Part shown: positions 35,326 through 54,373 of the stretch, in pieces
Position numbering within the stretch: position 1 is the stretch's first letter
Layout of the letters: every line of letters begins with the position of its first letter
NCBI GenBank assembly: GCA_022652945.1
Contig: JALCRV010000004.1
Location: 1-64,000 of the forward strand
DNA from: Bacilli bacterium
GTDB lineage: Bacteria > Bacillota_I > Bacilli_A > RFN20 > CAG-288
DNA length: 64,000 nucleotides
Direction: 5' to 3'
Translations under genes and position numbers: made by a program
The notes under the pieces: generated by a model
What the model was told of the DNA's origin: nothing
Database searches by the model: none
The model's input: only the letters and a program-made list of their open reading frames with translations

Positions 35326-36549
35326 TTAAGAAGCCTCGGGATATTTCAAGGAGGAAAAAGGATTTATTTCTCTAACTTCGATTGTGTCTGTATTCACCAA
35401 ATTAGATAATAGATTCCCATTACCAGAGCAATAAATATCATAGGCATAGATCAATCTTTCAACTCTTTGCTTGATTTCTTTTATTGCATCTTCCTTTGTT
35501 TGGCAATCATGTATGGAATATTTAAAAATGATTTTTTGCCCATGTTTTTTTTGCAATTCGATAGTATCAAAAAATTGAAAGAAATAGGGATAGTCTTGTT
35601 CATTCAAAGAATGCCCGAAGAAAACAATGGTCTTGGGAGTGAAATTGGTTTCACGTTTGTCTAAGTTTTCCCGAATACTAAGTTCAAATTGTCGAGAGGC
35701 CTTTGTGAAAATATAGGAAGGATCTTGCGGATTATTGGGCTTTGAGATTCCAAATATCAGGGTACAACTCGAATCTGAAATTTGACCATGGATATGGCGT
35801 AAAGAATATTTCAGCCCATATGCGGGAAGATAGTTAAACGTCTCGATAGAAAGGGGTAAATTTCCATCTGACAATAGTAAAACAAGAGAATCTCTTCTTG
35901 CTATATATTCTCCTTTGTTAGTAACTAATTGATTTAGCAAATATTTACCAAACCTATTTTCAAAAGAAAGAAGCTGTGACAAAAGAGTTTCATAAAAAGA
36001 GTCGTTATCTTGATAAACGGTTGAAAATGGCTTAAATAAAAAACTATTACACAAAGTCTCAACTAAAAAGGAATCATCAGGAGAAAAATTTAAACCGGAG
36101 TATGTAATAGATTGATCATGGAAATGGTCTGACGAGCCCTGTTCCTCATATTGAATTATCATTTCGCGGATTATGGCCCAATTTATCACATGTTTTTTGT
36201 TATTTGGCTTTTCAAAAGTTGATGAGATTACAGATTCTAAATCACACCAACCGATTTTCTCAGGGCTTGCTTTGAAAGAATAGATAAGAAAAACTATATC
36301 CCAAATAGTGAAATTCGAAAAAGACTGTGTTTCTTTCAGCAAATTGTGTGGATACCAACTGCAGTTAATATCTCCGTATTGGATGGTATCTCGCATATAA
36401 CCATATACACTACGAAAAGTTGGATTTGTATTAACTTGGTCGTTAAAAAAGTCGGCATATCGCGTTTTTAGGCCACACGCCAAATCAAATCCATTGCCAA
36501 TTATTAAGAGGGTGGGATTAGTCAAATCAACAAAATTATCAGTCTGCAT
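35326..36549 (-). CDS. AbiH-family abortive infection protein
   Basis: The 407-residue protein opens with TLLIIGNGFDLACGLKTRYADFF (about 13-35), the hallmark of the AbiH family, and near its end has VFFGHSLNEQDYPYFFQFFD. AbiH was described as a lactococcal phage abortive infection protein; its mechanism is unknown, though the GNGFDL loop suggests nucleotide binding. It is cytoplasmic with no membrane helices. It lies 98 bp downstream of three overlapping unknown genes on the same strand and could belong to their transcript. There is no strong ribosome binding site upstream. Confidence 0.85.
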   Translation of the reverse strand: MQTDNFVDLTNPTLLIIGNGFDLACGLKTRYADFFNDQVNTNPTFRSVYGYMRDTIQYGDINCSWYPHNLLKETQSFSNFTIWDIVFLIYSFKASPEKIGWCDLESVISSTFEKPNNKKHVINWAIIREMIIQYEEQGSSDHFHDQSITYSGLNFSPDDSFLVETLCNSFLFKPFSTVYQDNDSFYETLLSQLLSFENRFGKYLLNQLVTNKGEYIARRDSLVLLLSDGNLPLSIETFNYLPAYGLKYSLRHIHGQISDSSCTLIFGISKPNNPQDPSYIFTKASRQFELSIRENLDKRETNFTPKTIVFFGHSLNEQDYPYFFQFFDTIELQKKHGQKIIFKYSIHDCQTKEDAIKEIKQRVERLIYAYDIYCSGNGNLLSNLVNTDTIEVREINPFSSLKYPEAS

Positions 36550-38968: not shown

Positions 38969-40840
38969 TTATCTCAATCTTCCCTTAATGTATTCTCTTA
39001 GCGCCTGATCCTTGCAGTAAATAAAGCATCCCTTCTGGCCTCTTGTCATAAGTACCTTATAAGTATCTCTGATAAGCCTGTCTGCTAAAGCATCATCTTT
39101 GCAGGTCCTGATTTTAGAAGAGTTGTCATCTTTGGATATAGCGTTTTTATCCGTAACCACTTTCCCATCTCGATAAATCAAATCATCTCCAATGATGACC
39201 CCGACATAATCAAACTCCAAACCCTGGCAGGTATGAATACAGCCAACTTCTTCAAAAGACGATGGAAGGATAGCCCAAAGTTCACTGTTTTCATCTAAGT
39301 TCCATCTTGCCTTAAAGCCATTGTCGAGGTAGATATCATAATCATCCCGATGGAACTTCACATCCCAATCGAAGCAATAGCCAGCCACCATTCTGGCTTT
39401 ATTGTTAATCTGATTCAGTTGTCTTAGTTCATCCCTCATCTGATTAGGATCATCGAAGACTTTCATTTTAAAGCCTTCTAAATCAAGGCATTTATTAGCT
39501 GTCTGCTTAATGCCTAATAAATCATCGATAAAAGCGATGTAGCCATCGCTGCCATTGCAGCGGAACTGGCTGGAAAGGACTAAGTCGTCCCCGTGGAAGA
39601 TATGATTATCATCAATTCCAAGTTCCCGTGCCCAGGCAATGATTCCATCTACAGAGCCAATATCATTCACCGTGATTCTCTGATCTTCATCAATAAAGAA
39701 AATCGATAAAGTGGCAGCATTAATACACTCTTTAATTTGATTTTGTCCGTGGTAGTCTCTTCCATACTTTTTAACTAAACGATGGGCTTCATCAATTAAA
39801 AGACAGTCATAAGAATTAACCGGAACCTCGCATAAGCCAAAAGGAGACCTAAAAAGCGAATTAATATTAACTTGCTTTTTAATATCATTCTTCGAAAGCA
39901 AATTCAGATAGCATTTACGAGGGGCGCTGTTTTTAGTGACGTAAGCTACATTACTACCGGTCCTAAGTAAGTCACAGAGAAGATTGATTGCCAGGACCGA
40001 TTTCCCGGTCCCTGGCCCGCCTTGAATAATCATTACTCTCTTATGGCCATCTTTGTTACAATCGGCCATAGCTTTAATGCAGGCATCATAAACCGTGGAT
40101 TGTTCATCCATCAGCTGGAACTCTTTATTTCCTCTTAGCATACTTGCTAAACAATCCTGCAAGGCTTTTGCCGGTCTGATTTTACCGTTGTCGATCTTAT
40201 AGAGCAATTCTCCATCGGAACTCTTCTTTGTGATGAATCTAAGGATGAAATCCCTCAGTTTCATCATATCAGTCTTAAGGAATAAAGGAGCCTCTTCAAT
40301 CCAGGTCTTATAGATAGGATCCTCAATGATATATCTATCCGCTTCTCTATAGTTATGGCAGTAAGAGCAAGGATATAAATGAATGTTCTTATCAGCTACA
40401 ACTTCGGAATAATTCATGATATGGACAGCATAAGAATAAGCTTGGTAGCAAGGATGGGCTTCTACTCTTACAGCACCACCGGTAAAAGCGCGGACACTAT
40501 GGGTCTGAAGATCATCAACTTTTTCTACGGTAGACCATTGCTTAAGTTCAATGATTATTACATTGTCTTTTCCATAGTCATCGCTGCCAGAAATGATAAA
40601 GTCTACTCTTTTAGATGTTTGAGGAATGTTATATTCGATATCAATATCACAGTTAAGAGGAATCCGCGGGTCATCTAAAACGTTATGCATGAACTGCATA
40701 CTGTTATTCCAAGCATTGTATTCGCTGCTATTCTGATCGTTGATTCCGTGTTTAATCAGAGCCTCTTTAACATAATCAGCAATCATGTTGTTGATTACAT
40801 CGTGATCAAAGTTAGCTTTGGTATTGTGATATACAAGCAT
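38969..40840 (-). CDS. PD-(D/E)XK nuclease fused to DUF2075 helicase-like domain
   Basis: The ATG at 40840 has GGAGG 6 bases upstream. The 623-residue protein has an N-terminal nuclease-like core RVDFIISGSDDYGKDNVIII followed by ELKQWS (about 75-105), giving the D...ExK arrangement. A DUF2075 / Schlafen-type SF1 ATPase domain follows with GGPGTGKS (about 273-280), LLIDEAHRL (about 348) and the C-terminal IRDTYKVLMTRGQKG. The family is predicted to be a DNA/RNA helicase-nuclease; many members sit in defence loci. A clear paralogue, same size and order, lies at 52502-54373 on the opposite strand. It is transcribed alone, away from a 545-bp gap. Confidence 0.83.
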   Translation of the reverse strand: MLVYHNTKANFDHDVINNMIADYVKEALIKHGINDQNSSEYNAWNNSMQFMHNVLDDPRIPLNCDIDIEYNIPQTSKRVDFIISGSDDYGKDNVIIIELKQWSTVEKVDDLQTHSVRAFTGGAVRVEAHPCYQAYSYAVHIMNYSEVVADKNIHLYPCSYCHNYREADRYIIEDPIYKTWIEEAPLFLKTDMMKLRDFILRFITKKSSDGELLYKIDNGKIRPAKALQDCLASMLRGNKEFQLMDEQSTVYDACIKAMADCNKDGHKRVMIIQGGPGTGKSVLAINLLCDLLRTGSNVAYVTKNSAPRKCYLNLLSKNDIKKQVNINSLFRSPFGLCEVPVNSYDCLLIDEAHRLVKKYGRDYHGQNQIKECINAATLSIFFIDEDQRITVNDIGSVDGIIAWARELGIDDNHIFHGDDLVLSSQFRCNGSDGYIAFIDDLLGIKQTANKCLDLEGFKMKVFDDPNQMRDELRQLNQINNKARMVAGYCFDWDVKFHRDDYDIYLDNGFKARWNLDENSELWAILPSSFEEVGCIHTCQGLEFDYVGVIIGDDLIYRDGKVVTDKNAISKDDNSSKIRTCKDDALADRLIRDTYKVLMTRGQKGCFIYCKDQALREYIKGRLR

Positions 40841-41385
40841 AAAGACCTCCAAAAAGTGAGAATAAATAGAAGACTTATAAAAGAATTATATATTAAAAGT
40901 GAGGTGAAATATTAAACTTTTTAAAGGTCATAAAAGAAGGCACTAATTTATCCTAAAAATGAACATCACGAATTCCAAAAACTATGAAGTGCCAAAGAGA
41001 GACGATAAATAACAAAAGCACAACTTCATTCATTTAATAAAGTTTCACTTCAACGTATTATTCCGCTTTTATGTGATGAAGCTTTATAAAATCTGTATCG
41101 TGTGACTTTCAAAGAAAATAAAAGCCGGATTTTTTGGTTATTCTTATTTTACGGCAGGGGAAAAAATTAACATATCTCGAGAATTAAATTTAACTTTAAC
41201 AATAAAATCAATTGGTCTTTATAAGTGACAGTTATAATAGCACATCATATGATTAACATCTGACACGTATCAAATTCGTATGACGGCTAATAACAAAAGC
41301 ATTTCTTTTATGTCTTCATGTCCATTTGACAATTGCCTAATTTTTAATGCGTGATTATAATTAAAATATACTAGGAGATATAAAT
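40841..41385. other. Intergenic region, 545 bp
   Basis: An AT-rich divergent gap between the DUF2075 gene and the zinc-ribbon gene. It must hold both promoters. I see no RNA gene, repeat array or coding frame in it. Confidence 0.4.
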
Positions 41386-42083: not shown

Positions 42084-43382
42084 ATGTCACAAAAAGCACC
42101 TGCTATGGTAAAAAAACTATTGCCATCTAAATTTGCAGAACTCAAAGATGATTGGAGTAATCCGGATACCAAAGAACACAAGATGCATTCTATACATCAG
42201 TATCCAGCCAAGTTTCCTTCCTTTATAGCATCAAAAGCTTTCGAATATGCTGAAGGTCACGGCATTGATGTGCATACTGTAGGGGACGTTTTTTGTGGCT
42301 GCGGTACTGTCGCATTAGAATCGGAACTTCATGGAGACAATTTTTGGGGATGTGATATTAGCCCTGTTGCGGTCATGATTGCGAAAGCTAAAAGCCATGT
42401 CTATTCGACTTCCAGACTTCAAAAGCTTTTTGACATAGTAAAAACTTCTTACTCCGCCTCAGTAAATGATGAGCCTCCACAACTCGGAAGCCAAAGAATA
42501 GCCTTTTGGTTCGAAAAAAGACAAATAGTCAAATTGGCTAAAATAAAGAATTCCATAGACATGTACACTGCTAGGAATTCAAAATACAGGGATGCTTTTT
42601 ATTGCATTTTTTCATCAATTCTTAAGCCTTGTTCCCGTTGGCTTTCCCAATCAATTAAGCCACAGGTTGATCCTTGCAAGGTGCCAGCCGACCCCTTTGT
42701 TCTCTTTGAAAAACAGTTTATCCGATTCAAAAAAGCCTCTGAAGAAATAAACATCGATCTTAATAAGCAGAAGATCCGCAAAGCTTCTGTTGAAATCAAA
42801 AAAAAGAATATTTTATCCGCAAAGCCTCGGCCAAAAGTTGATATCATTATCTCAAGCCCTCCTTATGTTACTTCCTATGAGTACGCAGATCTTCATCAGC
42901 TTTCCACTCTTTGGCTAGGATACGCTGAAGACTATCGCGATTTGCGGAAAGGAACAATCGGGAGCTCCTACGGAAGCACTGAAAACGATTTTTCCAGATA
43001 CAAGCTCAATTACGTCGGGGAAGAAATTGTTAACGAGCTTCAAAAAAGAAGAGTGGAGCCTTCAAAGGTGCACGCAGTTGCCAGATATTACTCCGATATG
43101 GAAACAGTATCCAAGCGCTGTTATGGATTACTCAAACCTGGAGGCATGGCGCTTTTTGTGGTTGGAGATACCGAGTTCAAAAAAGTAAAAATCAGGAATT
43201 GTGACCATTTGTGGGAATGTATGCAACAAGCAGGGTTTTCGGAATTAGATTGTTGGAAGCGGAGAATCTGCGGAAAAACACTGTCTCCCTATCGTGATGG
43301 GAATGGTCGTTTTTCTAAAGACGCACAGCAGCGACAAATATATCGCGAAGAATATGTGATAGTGGGGAGGAAAATGTCATGA
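42084..43382 (+). CDS. DNA methyltransferase (SPPY-type), first gene of kinase operon
   Basis: The 432-residue protein contains the SAM-binding motif I GDVFCGCGTVALE (about 67-79) and the catalytic motif IV SSPPYVTSYEYAD (about 257-269). An N-terminal HQYPAKFPSFI block (about 38-48) is typical of a class of DNA amino-methyltransferases. SPPY suggests N4-cytosine or N6-adenine methylation of DNA. A long insertion between the motifs may carry target recognition. The TGA stop overlaps the next gene's ATG (ATGA), so it is translationally coupled to the histidine kinase-like gene. No restriction endonuclease is encoded next to it. It starts after a terminator, so the operon is independent of the zinc-ribbon gene. 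Confidence 0.85.
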   Translation: MSQKAPAMVKKLLPSKFAELKDDWSNPDTKEHKMHSIHQYPAKFPSFIASKAFEYAEGHGIDVHTVGDVFCGCGTVALESELHGDNFWGCDISPVAVMIAKAKSHVYSTSRLQKLFDIVKTSYSASVNDEPPQLGSQRIAFWFEKRQIVKLAKIKNSIDMYTARNSKYRDAFYCIFSSILKPCSRWLSQSIKPQVDPCKVPADPFVLFEKQFIRFKKASEEINIDLNKQKIRKASVEIKKKNILSAKPRPKVDIIISSPPYVTSYEYADLHQLSTLWLGYAEDYRDLRKGTIGSSYGSTENDFSRYKLNYVGEEIVNELQKRRVEPSKVHAVARYYSDMETVSKRCYGLLKPGGMALFVVGDTEFKKVKIRNCDHLWECMQQAGFSELDCWKRRICGKTLSPYRDGNGRFSKDAQQRQIYREEYVIVGRKMS

Positions 43383-45655
43383 ACGAAACGCTGAAAATCA
43401 AACCATACGCAAGGCTTATTACGATGCTAGGCGATCAGCTAATAAAAGATGAATCGGTCGCTTTGTCAGAACTTATCAAAAATTCCTATGATGCTGACGC
43501 TTCTTGCGTCATAGTTTCTTTTATTGGTTTTTCCGATGAGATGAAGCCGCTTGACGGCGCGAGAATAGAGATTTCCGACAATGGCTCAGGAATGACGGAA
43601 AACGTCATTAAAGATTCATGGCTGAATCCTGCAACCCCTGGTAAATATAATCTTATTCTTTCTGGAAAAGACCATACTCCGAGCGGACGTATTATTCAAG
43701 GGGAAAAAGGCATTGGTAGATTTTCTATTTTCAAATTAGGAAAGACCATTAAAATGGTGACGACCCCACAGAAGTTTTTAGGTGGCAACCCCGTTGATGA
43801 AGCAATTGGCCCCCGCTTCATTGTTGATTATGATTTTTCAATGTTTGACGATTCTTTTTCTGATTCTTCTGGCAAGAACCTTTATCTCGATGAGTTAGGC
43901 GTTTCTTTTAGCTCCTCAGAAGATCTGAGTTGCATCTATCCCAAATCCAAACCATATGGAACGAAATTAATCATATCAAACCTGCGTGGGACATGGGGAA
44001 ATGACAAAATTAAAAAAGTCCAAAAATCAATTGCAAGAATGTTGCCGATATTTGAGGACGGGGACGAAAACAATAAGAAGCGTGACGACTCTGTTTCTTC
44101 CATCGACTTTCCGTCTACCGAAGAGAAACAAAACAAATCTTTTGATGTCAAGATATTGAAAAATGGCGAACCTTTTTTATCTGAAAATGATCAAAAAGCC
44201 AGGCTAATCAATTTGCTTCACTCGGATAAACCTGCCATCAAGATTTCTAAGGGTCATTTCAATTCAGACACTTTAACCTACACCTACGAAGAAAACGGAA
44301 GTCCAAAAGCAATTGTGCTAGCGCAAGGGACGCGCCTTTCCGCTCTGAAGGAGGGTCGAGATATCTTGAGCAATGGTTCCGTTTCATGCGGACCGTTCGA
44401 TTTCGAATTTTATATTTTCGACCCAGCCGCATCAATAGACGATGAGCCCGAACACCGCCTTGAGAAAGATGAATACGACATCATTAAGGAACACCGCATT
44501 TACCTTTACCGGGATGGGATTCGTGTCATGCCATATGGAGATCCTGAAGATGATTGGCTTGGCATTGATATGCTTAGAGGTGTTGAAAAAGCCAGCTCTT
44601 TTATGAGTAACGACCAAACCGTTGGTTGTATTAGAATCTCGCGAACAGAAAACCCATTTTTACAAGACAAAACAAGTAGAGAAGGCTTAATTGAGAATGG
44701 CAGGGCGACGACCGATTTTGTTGCCGCCATTCGTTTGTTCCTCAGGTGGATTCGTTCTGATTCATACATGACGTACATCCAAACCAAAGATAGAAAGAAA
44801 GAAGAGAATCGATTGGCCTCTGAGACAACCCTTAAAGTCATCGCTGATGCTAAGGAAAAGTTCAAGAACTTTCCTGAGATTATCCCTGCTCTCGACAAAA
44901 TTGCCGCTAGTTACTCCTCGGATAAGAGTGAATACGAGAGACGGCTGGAAGTAACCGACCGACTGGCCGGGGTAGGAATGTCGATTGAGACCACCTCACA
45001 TGACGTCAATCTCTTTTTGGGAAGAGCGGCGGATGGGGTTGACATTCTTATTTCAGGGGCATCGGCAGGCTCCAAACTCTCTGAAGAAGAACTACTAGCA
45101 AAACTAATTGCAGTAAGAGGTGACCTTTCTTTCGCCCAAAAGCAAATGGATAACATTGGTATTCTTTATCCTGGAACAAGAGCAAAGCCCAAAAATGTGA
45201 ACGTTTGGGCCATTGCTGAAAAAATAAGGCAAATTTACGCTTTTCAATTTAACAAAAATAATATTTCCTGTGATATTCAGATGCCGAGTTCCCCTCTGAT
45301 TGTAAATACTGTGGACGCCGTTCTCTTACAAACGTTTATCAACCTTTTTGATAATTCGTTGTTTTGGTTAAAAACATGCGCCGTTGGTGAAAAGAAAGTG
45401 TCCATCTCAGTCGATTCAGAATCAAAGAAAGTAATCTTTTCCGATAATGGCCCAGGCATACCGGATTCGGACATTGGCTTTGTGTTTAAACCGTTTTTCT
45501 CGCGTAAGGGAGATGATGGTAAGGGTCTTGGTCTTTACATTGCAAAACAGCTTTTGGAAAGATATGGGTTCTCAATTGGTTTGATTACCGCACAGGAAGA
45601 CAAGATTCTTCCCGGAGCGAACTTTCAAATTGATTTTGCATCAGCTAGGAGGTAG
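43379..45655 (+). CDS. Cytosolic histidine kinase with two GHKL ATPase domains
   Basis: The 758-residue protein has an N-terminal GHKL ATPase of the Hsp90/MutL/MORC type: ELIKNSYDADA (31-41), EISDNGSGM (64-72) and GEKGIGRFS. Near the middle is a dimerisation/phosphoacceptor-like helix LAGVGMSIETTSHDVNLFLG with His 541. A C-terminal HATPase_c follows with FINLFDNSLFW (about 650), DNGPGI (about 689) and GKGLGLYIAKQL (about 713). No membrane helix or signal peptide is seen, so it is cytoplasmic. Two ATPase folds around a kinase-like His box is an unusual layout; MORC/MutL-like GHKL proteins have been described in restriction-modification contexts. Coupled to both neighbours, it probably signals to the receiver-like protein downstream. 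Confidence 0.82.
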   Translation: MNETLKIKPYARLITMLGDQLIKDESVALSELIKNSYDADASCVIVSFIGFSDEMKPLDGARIEISDNGSGMTENVIKDSWLNPATPGKYNLILSGKDHTPSGRIIQGEKGIGRFSIFKLGKTIKMVTTPQKFLGGNPVDEAIGPRFIVDYDFSMFDDSFSDSSGKNLYLDELGVSFSSSEDLSCIYPKSKPYGTKLIISNLRGTWGNDKIKKVQKSIARMLPIFEDGDENNKKRDDSVSSIDFPSTEEKQNKSFDVKILKNGEPFLSENDQKARLINLLHSDKPAIKISKGHFNSDTLTYTYEENGSPKAIVLAQGTRLSALKEGRDILSNGSVSCGPFDFEFYIFDPAASIDDEPEHRLEKDEYDIIKEHRIYLYRDGIRVMPYGDPEDDWLGIDMLRGVEKASSFMSNDQTVGCIRISRTENPFLQDKTSREGLIENGRATTDFVAAIRLFLRWIRSDSYMTYIQTKDRKKEENRLASETTLKVIADAKEKFKNFPEIIPALDKIAASYSSDKSEYERRLEVTDRLAGVGMSIETTSHDVNLFLGRAADGVDILISGASAGSKLSEEELLAKLIAVRGDLSFAQKQMDNIGILYPGTRAKPKNVNVWAIAEKIRQIYAFQFNKNNISCDIQMPSSPLIVNTVDAVLLQTFINLFDNSLFWLKTCAVGEKKVSISVDSESKKVIFSDNGPGIPDSDIGFVFKPFFSRKGDDGKGLGLYIAKQLLERYGFSIGLITAQEDKILPGANFQIDFASARR

Positions 45656-45657
45656 AA

Positions 45658-47112
45658 ATGGCATCTGAAAATGATATCAGTTTTATCAAAGCAATAGGCG
45701 ATTTTTCGGTAATTGTTGACGATTGCGTGAATGACGGAACTGAGCCGAAGCCGGAGATTGCAACGGTTGGAGAAGGGATTAATGTTATAGACTCGATTCG
45801 ACTCTTCCTTCTGAAAAATCACATTCCAGTTGTTTGCTATCGAACTGTCCCGTCCGATCCATCGGTTTTCTCCGGTGCTTCTCTTTCAATCATCGATTGG
45901 GACATGACTTCTATTACTGCAGCAAGAGCGGTTGTGGAGGAAAGTGTGAAAGACATGATTGAGGAGCATGTCAAGAGGTTTTTTTCTCCTGTTTTGATTG
46001 TAACTAGCGAATCATTAGATGTAATCAAAAGTGCTTTGGAAGAAGAAGACTGGTATCCAAAGAACACTAAGCGGATCATTTTGAAAAAAAAGGACGATTT
46101 TAAGATTGACGGCTTTTTTTCTGATAAAAGGTTCGTCGCCTTTTTACAAGATACTTTTTCCCGTTTTCCATCATTGAAGGTCCTCAGTGAATGGCATCAA
46201 GCGATGCTAGATGGAGGAAACGAGCTCTTCACAGAAATGTCCGAATTGTCACCTTCTTGGGCTAAGACTCTCTTCGATAATTTTGCTGATGGAGAAAATG
46301 ATGTCGGCCTCGCACTAGAGTCAAAAAGAAGACATTTTGGTTCTTTTTTGTGCACCAATCTTCTTGGGAGGGTGGACTTTACCTTTAAATCTTTGGAGTC
46401 TGAAGAAGAGTTGCCCGTTGACACGACTCTAGGAAAGGTTGGCGAAACGCCCAACTATTTATTAGAAAGAATCGTTGAGCATTCGAGATTAGTTCTTTTA
46501 GGTGATGAGAACAATGGTGTCTCAGCAAAGCCTCACGCTGGTGACCTTTTTGTTTTTAATAAAAATGAGTCACTGCTTAAAGATTATGTAGATCTAGACC
46601 AACTTCTCGAAAATGAAGACTATTGCCTTTTAAACATCAGAGCACAGTGTGATTTCGCCAGGAAGAAAAAAGATGTTTATCCCAAACTTTATTGCCTCCT
46701 TGGAACTTTCAGCAATACCTTGAAGAAATCAGGCGGAGCCAAATATCCTATAATCGTGAAAAATGATCGCATAATTGACTCTGACAATAAATCCCATCTT
46801 TTTTCTGAAATAACCGGTTATCAAGAATCAGAATTGAAGCAGCTTGAAAGGGTTCTTAACGAGGAAGATCCCACGCGATGTGGCGGAGATTATTCAGAGA
46901 AGCCATCAGAGGCAATCGTTTCCTGCGTTTTGGGACACAATAGCGTTTCTTTTCAGTTTCACTCCTTGTTTGTGATTCCCTTTGAGGCAATCAAGTCTTT
47001 GCGAAAGGCTACCCTCCTAGACCCATACCTATCAAGGGTTCAACAAAAGTTTTCTTTGTATATGGTTAGAGTTGGCGTCCCAAATACCCCGCTGAATGAT
47101 TTATACAAGTAG
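45658..47112 (+). CDS. Receiver-like protein, probable effector of kinase operon
   Basis: The 484-residue protein begins 2 bases after the kinase stop, with AGGAGG inside the kinase's last codons. Residues 16-145 look like a response regulator receiver domain: VIVDDC with the acidic pair Asp 21-Asp 22, SIIDWDM with Asp 80 as possible phosphoacceptor, VLIVTSE with Thr 116, and RIILKKK with Lys 143-145. The receiver is stretched by a loop before Asp 80. The remaining 340 residues (e.g. LFVFNKNESLLKDYV, YCLLNIRAQCDFARKKKD) match no family I know and are the likely output or effector part. Function is inferred from gene order. Confidence 0.6.
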   Translation: MASENDISFIKAIGDFSVIVDDCVNDGTEPKPEIATVGEGINVIDSIRLFLLKNHIPVVCYRTVPSDPSVFSGASLSIIDWDMTSITAARAVVEESVKDMIEEHVKRFFSPVLIVTSESLDVIKSALEEEDWYPKNTKRIILKKKDDFKIDGFFSDKRFVAFLQDTFSRFPSLKVLSEWHQAMLDGGNELFTEMSELSPSWAKTLFDNFADGENDVGLALESKRRHFGSFLCTNLLGRVDFTFKSLESEEELPVDTTLGKVGETPNYLLERIVEHSRLVLLGDENNGVSAKPHAGDLFVFNKNESLLKDYVDLDQLLENEDYCLLNIRAQCDFARKKKDVYPKLYCLLGTFSNTLKKSGGAKYPIIVKNDRIIDSDNKSHLFSEITGYQESELKQLERVLNEEDPTRCGGDYSEKPSEAIVSCVLGHNSVSFQFHSLFVIPFEAIKSLRKATLLDPYLSRVQQKFSLYMVRVGVPNTPLNDLYK

Positions 47113-47285
47113 TTTGAATTCATTCCTACTTAGTTTTCATTTTGTTTTGCTTAGATACAATAAGCATTTTCAATTTATGTCTGCAAGCAAATAACTAACT
47201 TGTCGTTTAAATAAAACTCGTTTTGCAAGCATCTCACAATTTGTCCACCACGAAAATGAATATTACGCCATTTTAAATAAATTTG

Positions 47286-48302
47286 ATGATTTTACTAAAG
47301 TGTTGCTGAGTCGAAGATTGGTTTTGAGCTAGAATATTCTTGCCAAACAACAGGATCTCCCGTGGCGGCCTGCTGATGTTGTTTGGCGATAACCTCTTGC
47401 CAGGACGCCACCCGAGATCCAAAACAAGAGGCTTTTTGTATGGAAGAGAAATGCCCTTACTGCGGATCATGCCATGTGAAGAGGAACGGAAGGTCTGGAA
47501 ACGGGAAGCAGAGGCGTCTCTGCCTCGCATGCGGAAGGTCCTTCGTGAAAGAGACGCATACGGTCTTCGCCTCGAGGAAGCTCGGCGAGGAGAAATTCAG
47601 GATGCTGATAGCGCTCATCATCAGGGATGCGACTGTCGAAACCATCAGCGAATGCCTCGGGGTCTTGTCCAAGACAGCCTACGTATGGAGGATGAAGCTC
47701 TACGGCTGCTTCGCCGGATACCAGAAAAGCCTTGTCCTAAAGGGGAAAGTCTGGATAGATGAGACGATGTTCCCTGTGTCAGGCGGGAAGATATGCTTCG
47801 GGGAAGGCGGAAGAAAGCTGAGAGGAGCGAGCAGGAACCAGACGGTCGTCTGCGCCGGGATAGACAGAGGATGGCACAGGATCGCCTTCGTCGCGGGCCG
47901 GGGCCATATCAGCTCCGCCAGGTGCCTTGAGGTCTACGGCCCTCACGTCGAGCGAGGCTCAGAGCTTGTGCACGACGGCACATTCTCGCACGACAGGCTG
48001 GTAAAGGAGAAAGGCCTGAAAGGGACGACGTGCAAGTCGACGGTTAAGTCCTTCAGGCCTCTGATGAAGCCGATAGACGACTTCTGCGCGATGATAAAGA
48101 GAAACAAGGTCATCCATATGGGAGGGATGGATGATTACCTCCAGAATTACCTTGACTGGATAACGTTCAAGCCTTGCCTAAGAAGCCTGAAGATGGATGA
48201 AAAGATAAGGAAAGTGGAAGCATACTGCTTCCATTCAAGGGTGGTGTTCCGCGTAAAAGACCGCTACTGTGGCATTATGCAGCAACACTTTGGTAAAATC
48301 AT
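47286..48302 (+). mobile_element. IS1595-like insertion sequence
   Basis: Terminal inverted repeats of 23 bp with one mismatch lie at 47286-47308 and 48280-48302. Outside them the similar 10-mers ATTTTAAATA (47270-47279) and ATTTTTAATA (48308-48317) may be a worn target duplication, so the true ends could lie a few bases further out. It encodes one DDE transposase and is markedly GC-richer than the host sequence. Confidence 0.85.
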
Positions 48303-48315
48303 TGAATATTTTTAA
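47440..48315 (+). CDS. IS1595-family (ISXO2-like) transposase
   Basis: The start at ATG 47440 is preceded by AAGAGG; the frame is open back to 47383. The 291-residue protein has an N-terminal zinc ribbon (CPYCGSCHVKRN ... CLACGRSF), an HTH (TVETISECLGVLSKTAYVWRM) and a DDE catalytic core: KVWIDETMF, NQTVVCAGIDRG and LVHDGTFSH, with a closing YLDWITFKPC. This order is that of ISXO2-type transposases. Its stop codon lies just beyond the conserved inverted repeat. The frame is intact, so the element may be active. GC-rich codon use differs from neighbours, a sign of recent arrival. Confidence 0.88.
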   Translation: MEEKCPYCGSCHVKRNGRSGNGKQRRLCLACGRSFVKETHTVFASRKLGEEKFRMLIALIIRDATVETISECLGVLSKTAYVWRMKLYGCFAGYQKSLVLKGKVWIDETMFPVSGGKICFGEGGRKLRGASRNQTVVCAGIDRGWHRIAFVAGRGHISSARCLEVYGPHVERGSELVHDGTFSHDRLVKEKGLKGTTCKSTVKSFRPLMKPIDDFCAMIKRNKVIHMGGMDDYLQNYLDWITFKPCLRSLKMDEKIRKVEAYCFHSRVVFRVKDRYCGIMQQHFGKIIEYF

Positions 48316-48526
48316 TATTATTTTCAAAAACCATATTAAGAATTTCTAATGGGACAGAAGAAATATTATTTCCATAACATCCTTGTCCAGCAAAAAGATC
48401 AAGATAAACAATTTCCTTATAGGTTAAATTACTAGAATATCTTACGCTATTAATAATTCGGAGATATATGCCAAAATAATAAGAAGCAAATTTAGTTTTA
48501 GAAAGACTAGCATCATCAGGATTCAA
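48306..48526 (-). pseudogene. Truncated three-Cys-motif-partner (TcmP)-like gene
   Basis: About 70 residues remain: a helix LSKTKFASYYFGIYLRIINS, then EIVYLDLFAGQGCYG, where DLFAGQGxxG matches the methyltransferase-like core of TcmP proteins (three-Cys-motif partner). The frame ends at the insertion-element boundary. No continuation appears on the far side of the element, so the 3' part was lost. The 5' end is also unclear: an ATG further upstream comes into frame only if the T7 run near 48526 loses one base. TcmP proteins occur with restriction-like and phage-related genes. The reading is by motif and fold pattern. Confidence 0.6.
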
Positions 48527-48797: not shown

Positions 48798-50858
48798 TTA
48801 ATGGGGATAATTTCGGGTAATTAATTGGTGCCTTTTTGCCAAATTCTGAATCTCATCATCTTTCAATCTTTCATCATCGCGATGAACCGCAAGAATAGAG
48901 CACTCATTTCTTCTGATATAAGCAATGTAAATAAGACTTAAATTCTTTTGCTCCTTGTAATAAAAATAAATATAGCTTAACACCAACTTGTGATCAAAGG
49001 ACGTAACCGGTCTGTCAGCAAAAATCAAAGAAAAATCCAGCCCATTTTTTTCTGTTATTCTTAAAGCTAAAGGGGCCTTTTTTTCTTTTCTCAAATCCTG
49101 TATTTTTCTGTAAAATGACTCTTGATCTTCCGGGCTTGAATCAAGAATATGAAGCATAATTTCAAATAGTTGTCTGTCTGTGTTTGAATTTAGAGCGACT
49201 GATAGCCACTCTGCTGTTTTCGAGAAGCAAAAAACAGGTTTAGAATTAGGAGAGATACCAAGTGCGCATTGAGAATAGTATATTTCAATGTCTCGTCCCC
49301 AATCAGAGTCACAAAAATAGATGCCTGTATCAGCCTCGTTGCTTCTATCTTTCATATTTTGTTCTAACAATCCGCTTAAATTCATCGTTTTATAGCAAAA
49401 TAGTCCTAAAATGGTCATTTCGTCATCAATAATGAATCTTTTATCTTTACAGCCAATCATTCTCTCTTGAAAATATTTGACAGTGAAAAGAGGGCTATTT
49501 AGAAAATCCATAACCATAATAAGATCAAATACATTAATAACAACAACGTTTACGCCCAAACCCGAGCCTTGGTTTCTCATGTTGAAACCAGGAAGATAAG
49601 CACCCATTTCTTCAAAAGTTACACAAATAGGTATAGCTTCAGCCACTTCTTTCTCATCAATGGAACGAATCACTTTATTATCATTTCCAACAATATCCAG
49701 CTTGTGTTTTAATGACAATGTAGCTAAAACTCTTTGGCATTGTTTTATTCCTTTTTCGATAAGAAGCTTATAAGATTCCCCGACTTTTTCCGGGCTTTCA
49801 AAAACTGAATCAGGAGTAACCTTGCCTCCTTTAACTTCTACAATAAAGAGAATTCCTTTATAGAGACAAAGGCCGTCATTTTCAAATCCAAATCCTTTAC
49901 CTTCTGAAAAATGATTGTTTTTTAAATATTCACAACCGGGAAAATACTTAATAAATTGATTTGCGACAAAAGTCTCAAAGGACTTTTTTTCATTTGATGA
50001 CCATTCCTCGTGCACTTCGGTTAGGAAGTGATGATTAATATATCCTTCCAAGCAACGAATAAACCTTGAAGAAACAAGGTCTAATGAGAAGCAGTAAATA
50101 TTTCCATCTGAATTGATAAATATTTTCCTGAATTTGTCTATAGGCGCCATTAATGAGCCAAGAAAAAAAGCATTTTCATTCAACGATCCAAATTCAGCAG
50201 ACATGAATTCAGCAATTGGCCAGATTTTGTCGTCTTTTGGAACAATAAAACAATCTGTTTGTCTATATCTGGAGTAGTTATCTATAAATTCTCTAAAAGT
50301 AATTTTCGATGGGACATGGAATCCTATGAAATTGTCATAAACTTTATAAAGCCATTGTTTGATATAACCTGCGTCAAAATCAAGATGCTTTTTTAAAAAG
50401 TCATTCTCAGAATCCAAAACAAAATCAAGAATTTTACCTTTAAACGGCATTAAAACCTCGGTGATTTCGTTTTGGCAATATCTAATTTCCTCAAGATTAT
50501 CATCAACGGTATTTTCATTGGCACATTTGAAATTTACAATCGTTTTATTGATAGAATAAACAAGGGATAGCAAATCTTCATAATTCAATCTTCTATTACC
50601 AGGTACAATTTTATGGGTCATCAGAAAAGCAAATAAGAAAATAAATGCATTATCCACTCCACAATAATTCTTGCCCCCTACTTTGTAATCGGGAAAACAA
50701 GTGGTAAGCAACAGAAATGAAGAATCGCTTAATTTTCCAAGAAGATCAATCAAATCAACACCAAATAATAAGTCCTTGATACAATCAAAATCCGGGAGTC
50801 CTTTTTTGCTTTTTTCGATGCTGTTTTCAAAAGCATGTGACGTTTCTTTTTTACTCAT
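48798..50858 (-). CDS. Predicted PD-(D/E)XK nuclease, partner of AlbA_2 protein
   Basis: The ATG at 50858 overlaps the end of the upstream gene by 8 bases; the frame is open to 50924. The 686-residue protein is cytoplasmic. Mid-protein a nuclease-like core is visible: FENDGLCLYKGILFIVEVKG (about 345-364), where Asp and E-x-K fit a PD-(D/E)XK nuclease. The N-terminal third is helical and the C-terminal third mixed; no helicase or methyltransferase motif is seen. Overlap with the AlbA_2 gene implies coupled translation and a joint complex. It is likely an effector nuclease of a defence unit; the exact family is not recognised. Confidence 0.62.
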   Translation of the reverse strand: MSKKETSHAFENSIEKSKKGLPDFDCIKDLLFGVDLIDLLGKLSDSSFLLLTTCFPDYKVGGKNYCGVDNAFIFLFAFLMTHKIVPGNRRLNYEDLLSLVYSINKTIVNFKCANENTVDDNLEEIRYCQNEITEVLMPFKGKILDFVLDSENDFLKKHLDFDAGYIKQWLYKVYDNFIGFHVPSKITFREFIDNYSRYRQTDCFIVPKDDKIWPIAEFMSAEFGSLNENAFFLGSLMAPIDKFRKIFINSDGNIYCFSLDLVSSRFIRCLEGYINHHFLTEVHEEWSSNEKKSFETFVANQFIKYFPGCEYLKNNHFSEGKGFGFENDGLCLYKGILFIVEVKGGKVTPDSVFESPEKVGESYKLLIEKGIKQCQRVLATLSLKHKLDIVGNDNKVIRSIDEKEVAEAIPICVTFEEMGAYLPGFNMRNQGSGLGVNVVVINVFDLIMVMDFLNSPLFTVKYFQERMIGCKDKRFIIDDEMTILGLFCYKTMNLSGLLEQNMKDRSNEADTGIYFCDSDWGRDIEIYYSQCALGISPNSKPVFCFSKTAEWLSVALNSNTDRQLFEIMLHILDSSPEDQESFYRKIQDLRKEKKAPLALRITEKNGLDFSLIFADRPVTSFDHKLVLSYIYFYYKEQKNLSLIYIAYIRRNECSILAVHRDDERLKDDEIQNLAKRHQLITRNYPH

Positions 50859-52137
50859 TTTCCGCCTTTTCCACAAAAACATGTTCTGTAGGCAAAGCAT
50901 CATTGAAGATATCCTGAAAACCATTTTCTTTTCGCCATCGTTTGTGCATTCTCATCATGGCTTGAGAACTCGCAATTTTACGTTTCAGCGCATTTTTTTC
51001 CAATTCACTGGCGCAGTCAATAAGCTTTCCAACAAAATACTGTTCCTTTTGAATCCAAGCAACCATATCGCAATACTCATTCAGATGCAGCATTACAAAT
51101 TCTTTTAAATGTGCCACCTCATCCTCATCTTCATATAAATCAACAACCTCAAACACTCTACGAACAGCTTCCTTAGATTCAGAATTGTAATTGTTGCGAA
51201 GGCAAAAGAAAACAATCGAAAAGTCAATTGAATCTTTTGTGAAATACCGAAATGAGTAATTCTCGTTGGAACTTTTATTTTCAATGAACCTTTCTTCTGG
51301 AACCGGGACTTCTGCCCGTCCCCCGTCAAGTTCCTCCATAGTACAACAATATATGACACGACTCCACAAAAAGAGTCTTAACGTAAAGGATACAGGTTTA
51401 AAGTCTGTTTGAATGACTTGATAAATAGTCTGAGTTTGTTTTTCGTCATCGCTCGAATCAAGATCGAACAATATCGCATAAGCAGGATTGGTTTTATAAA
51501 AAAGCAAATAACTCAATCCACTTTCTTCATAATTGGGTGACCACATTTTGACATCTTTTAGATATATTCGAAATTGTTCAAGCGGATCAAAAATATCCTC
51601 GTTCCCAAACTTCCTCTTCCAAAGGTTTTCGATAATGTTCCTATCAGCATTTTGGTCCCGTGGAGTATTCGTTGCTTGATTTCGGACAATTATTCCTATC
51701 CCCGCTCTTTTCCTGTAATCTCCTTTTGAGGGATAAGACTTTGTCAGGAAAAATGGAATGTTATGGGAATTGGATTCAATTACTATGACATCAAGTCTTT
51801 TTTCCTGAATTTTAATTGATGTTATACGAAAATCCGGGCGTATCCCACCCGAGAAAGGTGCCTCTCTTATTATTTGAGTGACTTCATCATTTTTTTCGTT
51901 TAAATGAATAGTCTCATCAACGCCTTTTATTTCGCCAGCATTTGTAACTCCGATAATTATATATGATAAATCATTATAGGTTGAGTTCGAAAAAGCAAGA
52001 AAGTCCATAATAAGATTGCCATTATCATCAGGGCCATACCATTCTTCTTTAAAATCATAATAGGCACTTTCAGTCTTGGAATCTTTGAGAATATCTTCAA
52101 TTGTTTTTGACAATGTTTGCTCGTTTATTTTAATCAT
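50851..52137 (-). CDS. AlbA_2 (Schlafen-type) domain protein
   Basis: The ATG at 52137 has GGAAAGG upstream and is chosen over 52155. The 428-residue protein starts with an AlbA_2 domain: SAYYDFKEEWYG, IMDFLAFSNSTYNDLSYIII and GVTNAGEIKGVDE (about 20-70), which match the Schlafen/AlbA_2 nucleic-acid-binding fold. A long region without recognised motifs follows. AlbA_2 proteins often accompany nuclease or toxin genes in defence loci. It overlaps the nuclease gene downstream by 8 bases. It probably recognises a nucleic acid or nucleotide signal that controls its partner. Confidence 0.75.
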   Translation of the reverse strand: MIKINEQTLSKTIEDILKDSKTESAYYDFKEEWYGPDDNGNLIMDFLAFSNSTYNDLSYIIIGVTNAGEIKGVDETIHLNEKNDEVTQIIREAPFSGGIRPDFRITSIKIQEKRLDVIVIESNSHNIPFFLTKSYPSKGDYRKRAGIGIIVRNQATNTPRDQNADRNIIENLWKRKFGNEDIFDPLEQFRIYLKDVKMWSPNYEESGLSYLLFYKTNPAYAILFDLDSSDDEKQTQTIYQVIQTDFKPVSFTLRLFLWSRVIYCCTMEELDGGRAEVPVPEERFIENKSSNENYSFRYFTKDSIDFSIVFFCLRNNYNSESKEAVRRVFEVVDLYEDEDEVAHLKEFVMLHLNEYCDMVAWIQKEQYFVGKLIDCASELEKNALKRKIASSQAMMRMHKRWRKENGFQDIFNDALPTEHVFVEKAENE

Positions 52138-52501
52138 TTTTGACCTTTCCTTCACCTATCGCTTACTAAGGCAAGAAATTCCAAATTCCGTTCAATAATA
52201 AGACATTCGCTCACTTATAAGAAAAATTTTTCTTTTTAAAATTATAGCATTATTAGCAAAAGGAAAGGGAAGACGAAAAGAGATTTTCCATTGGTCAGGG
52301 CCGTTTTTTACAAAAAGTATAAGCTTTGATTTTAAATATAAACGGTTTCCCCATATGAAATCACCTTTTTTATGCAAAGTTAGAAATTTTATTCAAGTAT
52401 AAAACAGGGGCTTGGAGCTCACTTCCAACTGAAAGATGTAAAAAAAGATTATAATAAAGTCATTAAAAAGAATTATTTAAACATCAAAGTGGAAAACAGA
52501 C
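52138..52501. other. Divergent intergenic region, 364 bp
   Basis: No gene is supported. TATAAT at about 52450 may be the -10 box of the plus-strand DUF2075 gene; a good -35 box is not evident. Confidence 0.35.
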
Positions 52502-54373
52502 ATGATAGTTTATGAAAATGCCCTAAATGACTTTATATCCCAATGCAACAAAGGCATCATTGCTGATGAAGTTGCTAAGAAGATGCAAGTAGAAGGAATT
52601 CCTTTTGGTCATCCCGAAGAAAACTCCTGGGTAAATTCCCTCCCTTTCGTTGCTAAGGCTTTAGATGATGATTCTATAGATAAGAACATAAATTTAGCTA
52701 TCGAATATCAGTTCTCTTTAAATAAGAAGCGTATTGATGTCATAGTCTATGGTCAGAATGAGGAAAAAGAAGACTCCCTGGTTGTTATAGAACTTAAACA
52801 ATGGAGCACCGCCACTGATTCTAAAAAGCCAAACTACGTCTTTACCAATGGAGGTGGCGGTGCTCAAGATTACCTCCATCCTTCCTTCCAGGCTTATGCC
52901 TATGGCTGTACCTTAAAAGGCTTTAATTCTGTCATTCAGGATCAGCATGTCGATGTTGAGTCATGTTCCTATCTTCATAATATGGATAACGGATATGAAG
53001 ATATCTTAAGGAACCCAGCAAAATACCCTTTTGTTTCTCAAAGCCCAGTCTTCCTCAAAGATGATGAAGACAAACTCAGAGATTTCATTAAGAAATACGT
53101 CAGATATGGGCGCAAAAAGCTAATCTACGAAATAGATAACGGATCTATCAGACCTTCCAAAAACTTTTCTAATATGCTTTATCAGGCTTTAAAAGGCCAA
53201 CCTATTTTTACTTTAGATGATGAGCAAGCCAATTCAGTCTCCACTATCATCTATGAAGTTACTTCCGCAATTGAGCACAGAAGACGTAAAACTATAATCA
53301 TCAAAGGTGGACCTGGCAGCGGTAAATCTGTTGTAGCCATCAACGCTTTAGGGCAGCTAATCCATCCTCAAAACGGAGAGCCTAATAATGCCGTTTACTG
53401 TACTACCAACTTCACTCCTCGGACTCTTTTCTCCGAACTGTTAGTCAAAGATGACTACAAGAAAAAAGCCATCGATAATCTATTTAGAACCTTAGCGACC
53501 TTTTCAAGGTCTAGAGAATGTGAATTTGATTGTGTCTTAATGGATGAGTCTCATCGTGCTTTCGAGTGGAAGTTCGGCCAAGGAATCAAGAAAGATGTCG
53601 ATATGGCTGAAAAAGTCTTCTACTCTTCCTTAGTCAATGTCTTCTTTATCGATGAAGACCAAGTGGTGACTAAACACGACTATCTCACCATCGACTTAAT
53701 TAAGAAGTACGCTGAGAAATATAACTCCGAGTTAATCGAGGGTGAGGATTTACATCTCACCTCACAATTCAGATGTATGGGTGGGCAGAACTATATCGAC
53801 TTTATTAATTGCTTCCTTGGATATAGCTCCCAGAAAGTCCGTCTCCGCTCAAAGAACTACGACTTTCAGGTCTTTGATACCCCGACAGAGATGTATGACA
53901 AGATCAAAAATCTTCAGATAGATTTCCCTAGAACAAGATTACTGGCCGGTTACACCCATGAATGGGTCAGCAATGAGAAGAATCCTAAATGCGATGCTTC
54001 TAAATATGACTTTGATATGGATGGTCATCGTTTCTTAATGAGATGGAACCGGAAGGTTGATTGGTCCTTCATTAATGATACAGATCAAAACGACCGAATC
54101 GGATGTATTCATACGATTCAAGGCGTGGATATGGATTACGCCGGAGTCATCATCGGTAAAGATTTAATTTATCGCGATGGCCATATAGTCTTCGACAAGA
54201 CTCAGAATGCCAAATCTGATACCGACAGCGGTATCAGAACGGCTGATGAGGCTTTAGCTGAGAGAATGATTAGAAACACTTATAAGGTACTGCTTACTAG
54301 AGCTATATACGGAACATACGTATACTGCGAAGACAAAGCGTTAAACAATTATTTAAAAACTATCATTATTTAA
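52502..54373 (+). CDS. PD-(D/E)XK nuclease fused to DUF2075 domain, paralogue
   Basis: The 623-residue protein has the same layout as the gene at 38969-40840: nuclease-like core RIDVIVYGQNEEKEDSLVVI followed by ELKQWS (about 77-103), Walker A GGPGSGKS (about 269-276), LMDESHRAF (about 346) and a closing IRNTYKVLLTRAIYG. The DEAH-type box reads DESH here. It is transcribed on the plus strand, alone. The two paralogues lie on either side of the methyltransferase-kinase operon and the insertion element, so one may be a copy specialised for a different trigger. Function as helicase-nuclease is predicted from the family only. Confidence 0.82.
   Translation: MIVYENALNDFISQCNKGIIADEVAKKMQVEGIPFGHPEENSWVNSLPFVAKALDDDSIDKNINLAIEYQFSLNKKRIDVIVYGQNEEKEDSLVVIELKQWSTATDSKKPNYVFTNGGGGAQDYLHPSFQAYAYGCTLKGFNSVIQDQHVDVESCSYLHNMDNGYEDILRNPAKYPFVSQSPVFLKDDEDKLRDFIKKYVRYGRKKLIYEIDNGSIRPSKNFSNMLYQALKGQPIFTLDDEQANSVSTIIYEVTSAIEHRRRKTIIIKGGPGSGKSVVAINALGQLIHPQNGEPNNAVYCTTNFTPRTLFSELLVKDDYKKKAIDNLFRTLATFSRSRECEFDCVLMDESHRAFEWKFGQGIKKDVDMAEKVFYSSLVNVFFIDEDQVVTKHDYLTIDLIKKYAEKYNSELIEGEDLHLTSQFRCMGGQNYIDFINCFLGYSSQKVRLRSKNYDFQVFDTPTEMYDKIKNLQIDFPRTRLLAGYTHEWVSNEKNPKCDASKYDFDMDGHRFLMRWNRKVDWSFINDTDQNDRIGCIHTIQGVDMDYAGVIIGKDLIYRDGHIVFDKTQNAKSDTDSGIRTADEALAERMIRNTYKVLLTRAIYGTYVYCEDKALNNYLKTIII

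Follow-up and report, generated by a model that had tools for sequence, protein, structure and literature searches.

The window analysed here is a stretch of 64,000 nt (contig JALCRV010000004.1, positions 1-64,000) from a 2.09-Mb assembly, and it carries a trio of genes for a SPPY-type DNA methyltransferase, a soluble sensor kinase with two GHKL ATPase modules, and a third protein with a divergent receiver domain (Table 1). Three tightly coupled open reading frames (ORFs) had been described in an earlier sequence-only reading, and their positions, the 4-base ATGA overlap at the methyltransferase/kinase junction, and the 2-base gap at the kinase/third-gene junction were reproduced exactly; a GGAGG ribosome-binding-like site lies 5' of the ATG of the third gene. 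Because the G+C content of the trio is 41%, against 35% in both flanks, and a full-length kinase was found in 0 of 97 related genomes, the trio in the window was most likely acquired.

The kinase alignment was searched against one genome per GTDB species, which gave 357 relatives. Together with the window itself and three further loci (on an IMG/VR contig, a faecal scaffold, and an Allorhizobium plasmid), the best 80 of these (34-45% identity) made up the 84 loci compared. The genes for methyltransferase, kinase, and receiver protein follow one another in this order on one strand in 80 of the 84, mostly with overlaps or gaps of a few bases; homologues are thus co-located in other genomes too. 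A chance operon is ruled out by this retention of the trio. The four exceptions are two loci that end at contig edges (L067 and L107), one in which the kinase is shortened and the receiver gene missing (L103), and one with no detectable methyltransferase (L106). The hosts of the best 80, as named in their record titles, belong to Firmicutes, Bacteroidota, Pseudomonadota, Planctomycetota, Verrucomicrobiota, Acidobacteriota, Actinomycetota, Nitrospirota, Elusimicrobia, Cloacimonadota, Omnitrophota, Patescibacteria, Gemmatimonadota, archaea, and others. The trio is more general than had been supposed. Pairwise distances were correlated between kinase and receiver protein (r 0.86), kinase and methyltransferase (0.67), and methyltransferase and receiver protein (0.56), values in which host relatedness is still included, with maxima below 0.19 in 500 label shuffles. 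In the window, the receiver protein is the most diverged part of the trio, with a median identity of 24% to the other members, compared with 40% (kinase) and 44% (methyltransferase). No recurrent fourth gene was found among 103 flanking proteins of homologous loci; the effector should therefore lie within the trio, bringing modification, sensing, and effect together, and the receiver protein is likely to be that effector. In the Flavonifractor plautii locus (L108), two ORFs take the place of the single kinase ORF, probably because of a frameshift.

The SPPY motif of the methyltransferase was located at residues 258-261 as motif IV, after motif I (FCGCG, residues 70-74), and the protein matched PF01555 N6_N4_Mtase (E 1.9e-11) and PADLOC MTase_II (E 2.1e-34). 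SPPY is conserved across the family (81 of 82 full-length members). The enzyme is most likely of the N4-cytosine or N6-adenine type; SPPY is the more frequent form in N4-cytosine methyltransferases. Beside the trio in several alpha-, beta-, and gammaproteobacterial loci lies a second SPPY methylase (~397 amino acids [aa]), mostly divergent, which perhaps modifies the opposite strand where the site is asymmetric.

In the kinase, the two GHKL folds proposed around a SHDVN box were recovered by Pfam as HATPase_c_3 at residues 27-131 (E 3.4e-16) and HATPase_c at residues 649-736 (E 2.2e-17). The structure model (pLDDT 80.6, pTM 0.72) aligned over residues 8-473 with TRAP1 4iyn (VIA Z 14.9, root-mean-square deviation [rmsd] 4.5, 297 residues), and Foldseek matched it to SMCHD1 6mw7 (E 1.4e-9) and DNA-bound MORC2 9cdh (E 1.7e-8). 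The dimerisation and histidine domain (DHp) is modelled as a pair of long helices, the first of which carries His541, DHp and the catalytic ATP-binding (CA) domain together align with HK853 (Z 17.0), and the predicted CA domain matches ThkA 3a0t (VIA Z 17.2, rmsd 2.0, 147 residues). The SHDVN box occupies residues 540-544, and H541 and D542 are invariant in 48 of 48 homologues, as are E31, N35, D67, G69, G71, K110, G111, and G113 of the N-terminal ATPase and N655, D658, N659, D689, G691, G693, G716, and G718 of the CA domain. Because the ATP-binding residues of both modules and the H541-D542 pair are invariant and the folds match, the protein is, as modelled, a working-looking histidine kinase with a MORC/Hsp90-like clamp as its input domain.

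The third protein had no Pfam or PADLOC family match and only a chance-level NCBIfam match (E 0.14), and its profile found nothing among PDB sequences. Its AlphaFold2 model (pLDDT 85, pTM 0.80) has a receiver fold at residues 12-172 that aligns with KdpE 4kfc (VIA Z 11.2, rmsd 2.7, 119 residues), with Asp80 at the end of strand 3 and Asp21, Thr116, and Lys145 at the strand ends usual for receivers. Across 74 homologues D21, D80, and K145 are kept in 74/74, position 116 is T or S in 74/74, and position 22 is D, E, or N, so that the acidic pair, Asp80, and Thr116 named in the sequence-only reading all stand; of its lysines 143-145, K145 proved to be the receiver lysine, whereas K143 is present in only 50 of 74. 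The elements of a two-component system are thus present in the trio (DHp with its histidine, CA domain, and receiver fold with acidic pair, Asp, Thr/Ser, and Lys), and the proposed phosphosignalling layout, a soluble dual-GHKL kinase and a receiver tied to a DNA methyltransferase, is supported by co-location and predicted structures.

The C-terminal output domain of the third protein was compared in the same way, and a MazF-like fold is supported by the predicted model, which aligned with S. aureus MazF 4mzm/4mzp (VIA Z 10.9, rmsd 3.1-3.5, 112/115 residues). Six of the top 50 structure matches of the third protein are MazF entries, and a search of the viral models in BFVD independently returned a PemK/MazF toxin (prob 0.99, TM by target 0.69). 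Because the structure list is dominated by receivers, the domain may also belong to families other than MazF. Its invariant or near-invariant residues are G295, D296, N326, R328, C331, D332, P456, and R471, and the clade signature, GDxF ... NIR(P/A)xCD ... RxxLxPY ... RxG, differs from that of PemK/MazF. At residue 452, in the output domain, the window protein has Thr, whereas Arg is found in 67 of 74 homologues; given this and the unusual divergence of the protein, its activity may be altered.

Table 1. Coordinates of the trio, its predicted domains, and other features (window positions unless a locus is named).
Feature	Position	Strand	Remarks
DNA methyltransferase ORF	42084-43382	+	432 aa
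Soluble dual-GHKL sensor kinase ORF	43379-45655	+	758 aa
Hsp90/TRAP1/MORC-like ATPase and middle domain (putative clamp/sensor)	43400-44797	+	kinase residues 8-473
DHp helical hairpin	44882-45166	+	kinase residues 502-596; phosphoacceptor His541 at 44999-45001
CA domain	45182-45652	+	kinase residues 602-758
Third (receiver) protein ORF	45658-47112	+	484 aa
Divergent receiver domain	45658-46107	+	residues 1-150; Asp80 at 45895-45897
Helical middle region	46123-46497	+	third-protein residues 156-280; model secondary structure
Output domain, predicted MazF/PemK fold	46525-47076	+	third-protein residues 290-473
AbiH family, Schlafen group 3 helicase (x2), and Schlafen AlbA_2 genes	35326-36549, 38969-40852, 50851-52155, 52502-54373
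Second SPPY methylase	L022 3349-4539	-	also in L047, L050, L055, L067, L069, L080

The anatomy of the trio is well supported: gene order, co-inheritance, and the phosphorelay residues are seen in the sequences, and the clamp, DHp, CA, receiver, and MazF folds in the predictions. From this anatomy we infer function, and the trio is put forward, as a serious though tentative possibility, as a self-contained methylation-guarded two-component defence unit of abortive or restrictive type. The methyltransferase would mark the cell's own DNA at one sequence, and the Hsp90/MORC-like ATP-driven clamp of the kinase would sense unmarked DNA or a state produced by invading phage or plasmid DNA. Sensing would activate the DHp-CA core, His541 would autophosphorylate, and the phosphate would move from it to Asp80 of the third protein. 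Phosphorylation would free the MazF-fold output domain, which would damage nucleic acid or stop growth, most simply as an RNase-type toxin.

Several points weigh against this defence reading. A sequence link between the output domain and PemK/MazF was tried and rejected, as HHalign against 54 PemK sequences from related genomes gave a probability below 1%, and the PF02452 profile did not match the window protein and was absent from the families listed for 74 members. The conserved N-x-R-P/A-x-C-D after the second strand seems unlike the Arg/Thr catalytic pair of MazF, and N326, R328, C331, and D332 fall elsewhere than the MazF Arg, as judged by strand order rather than by residue-level superposition. 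Fold similarity to MazF shows no function, and a MazF-type RNase activity is only a proposal. The genes that flank the homologues are of mixed kinds, only some of them for restriction or defence, and no published phage assay or biochemical data for the trio were found in the open-access papers searched.

The sensor and output domain could instead be parts of a restriction-modification (R-M) system with a phospho-gated nuclease, in which the output domain cuts unmethylated DNA, the clamp recognises or translocates DNA as in paraMORC and HgiDII-type systems, and the cell survives. Kinase residues 16-129 match the BbrUII/HgiDII model NF050001 (E 2.1e-14), MORC and paraMORC GHKL ATPases occur in R-M operons (Iyer et al. 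2008, PMC2292703), and in the three related loci that lack the output domain, separate nucleases are encoded nearby. The HgiDII match is, however, far under its cut-off (53 against 550 bits), domain-library scans of the third protein turned up no known DNase motif, and the fold match is to MazF and not to a DNase, so that this explanation is unlikely. The cognate endonuclease that marks a type II R-M system was likewise not seen, with no nuclease domain recognised in the trio or recurrently beside it. A hidden fourth nuclease gene was considered and ruled out, since the flanking proteins show no recurring family.

The canonical histidine kinase/response regulator anatomy would also suit an epigenetic regulator, in which the kinase responds to a signal of the cell, with the receiver protein controlling transcription or the methyltransferase without killing, a scheme near the proposal of Bellieny-Rabelo et al. 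2021, with stress induction in Pectobacterium (PMC8011034). Pfam-type scans of the third protein found no DNA-binding domain, helix-turn-helix or other, the MazF-like fold hints at toxin ancestry, and sporadic distribution and plasmid carriage better suit mobile conflict systems; a purely regulatory role therefore seems improbable.

Kinase-type loci occur on conjugative and other plasmids, with 41 Campylobacter plasmid records having a kinase match; in such plasmid searches the receiver protein as query returned zero or one record, and the kinase was the better bait. This occurrence, like the MazF fold, would fit an addiction module in which the third protein is a toxin restrained by DNA methylation, so that loss of the operon kills the cell and the mobile element benefits more than the host. 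Many copies of the trio sit on chromosome-sized contigs, however, and a simple addiction device would hardly call for anything as elaborate as the fused kinase clamp, which makes this reading very unlikely; addiction and defence are compatible and not mutually exclusive. All three alternatives share most of the anatomy of the trio with the defence reading. The related kinases and response regulators on two Campylobacter conjugative plasmids (L024 and L171) are accompanied by a C5 methylase on the opposite strand. On the IMG/VR contig (L021), the trio has an integrase-like ORF on one side and, on the other, an ORF that resembles, by eye, the filamentous-phage Zot ATPase; the trio may therefore be phage cargo.

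In the window, an IS1595-like insertion element (47270-48318) with 39-base inverted repeats (85%) lies directly downstream of the trio. Within 12 kb of the trio lie an AbiH gene, a pair of genes for Schlafen group 3 helicases, and a gene of the Schlafen AlbA_2 type, which matches PADLOC candidate PDC-S50; this part of the window is therefore a defence-rich stretch. The two helicase genes flank the trio on either side, on opposite strands. The absence of an adjoining restriction nuclease noted from the sequence was borne out by Pfam, PADLOC, and NCBIfam scans of the window proteins.

The sequence-only reading knew of no system with this exact set of genes. The basic parts of the trio are prior art in Bellieny-Rabelo et al. 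2021 (PMC8011034), where HEF_HK kinases with HATPase_c_3 and HATPase_c were described as paraMORC-like, adjacent Response_reg_2 proteins were linked to them at 91.6% in 644 regions, methylases, mainly C5, were found near the pairs, stress was reported to induce related genes in Pectobacterium, and a role in signalling over R-M was suggested. What stands of the claim is that the window set is, on profile evidence, a distinct sister clade of this kind, because the published domains match the proteins of a Pantoea locus used as positive control (L025; PF19191 7.1e-6, PF19192 3.8e-19) and not those of the window. PF19191 did not match the window kinase at E<=10 and matched 3 of 48 clade members (best E 0.018), and PF19192 did not match the window receiver protein and matched 7 of 74 (best 1.6e-5); membership of the window proteins in the two published domains was rejected. 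The class and the window have in common a soluble kinase in which an H-box stands between an N-terminal HATPase_c_3 and a C-terminal HATPase_c, an adjoining divergent receiver protein, an upstream DNA methylase, and the paraMORC relation. They differ in the methylase, mostly C5 in the class and TSPPY in a fixed three-gene order in the window clade, and in the MazF-like output domain, which was not described for the class in that study.

The output domain itself seems common to both groups. Its profile from the window clade matched receiver proteins of Campylobacter (1.6e-13) and Pseudoalteromonas (1.8e-7). Once iterated, the profile also matched the second gene of 10 out of 13 more distant dual-GHKL kinases; the E-values refer to small sets. 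The three second genes without this TPxCD output domain (L023, L169, L170) have a separate Vsr, type II restriction endonuclease, or HNH gene nearby, whereas L165 has both the output domain and a Vsr gene; in this small sample, the pattern is a hint and not a test. A common MazF-like output domain appears to be so far unrecognised, and this domain, the strict SPPY-methylase trio, its breadth, and the clamp-kinase model exceed the published accounts found in the open-access papers searched. A bolder form of the defence reading, in which a MORC-like clamp reads DNA methylation and a His-Asp relay fires a toxin-fold effector shared by all HEF_HK/Response_reg_2 pairs, as one large unrecognised methylation-guarded abortive family in bacteria and archaea, is conceivable, though less likely than not. 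If the defence reading is true, a two-component phosphorelay would be the decision step of a restriction-like system, with methylation as the mark of self, sensing by an Hsp90/MORC-type ATPase, and output through a toxin-fold receiver protein. Several hundred published uncharacterised HEF_HK/Response_reg_2 pairs would then have a testable function, and the trio would be a bacterial model of a MORC-like ATPase with a direct signalling readout.

Besides the 2021 study, literature searches on defence systems of the Detocs-like, MazF-receiver, and GHKL-methylase types gave only a DefensePredictor figure legend in which HATPase and REC domains are named among predicted, non-validated systems (PMC13092281). 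Like the paraMORC/MORC R-M operons, in related loci of which Vsr occurs, the window has a GHKL ATPase module beside a DNA methylase, but it is without an SFII helicase or nuclease partner, and its ATPase forms one protein with a histidine kinase core. The likeness to BbrUII/HgiDII is confined to the N-terminal GHKL ATPase; the family match fails, and the remainder of the window protein is kinase. With the MazF/PemK toxins (PF02452), the output domain has a fold in common, but it differs from them in the failed profile match, the receiver fusion, the lack of an antitoxin gene, and other conserved residues. Detocs combines a histidine kinase with a receiver-linked effector in a defence-type operon, and the trio resembles it in having both. 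No phosphate-buffer second protein or nucleosidase effector domain was found in the trio by Pfam or PADLOC, and in place of these Detocs parts the window has a DNA methyltransferase and an Hsp90/MORC-like sensor.
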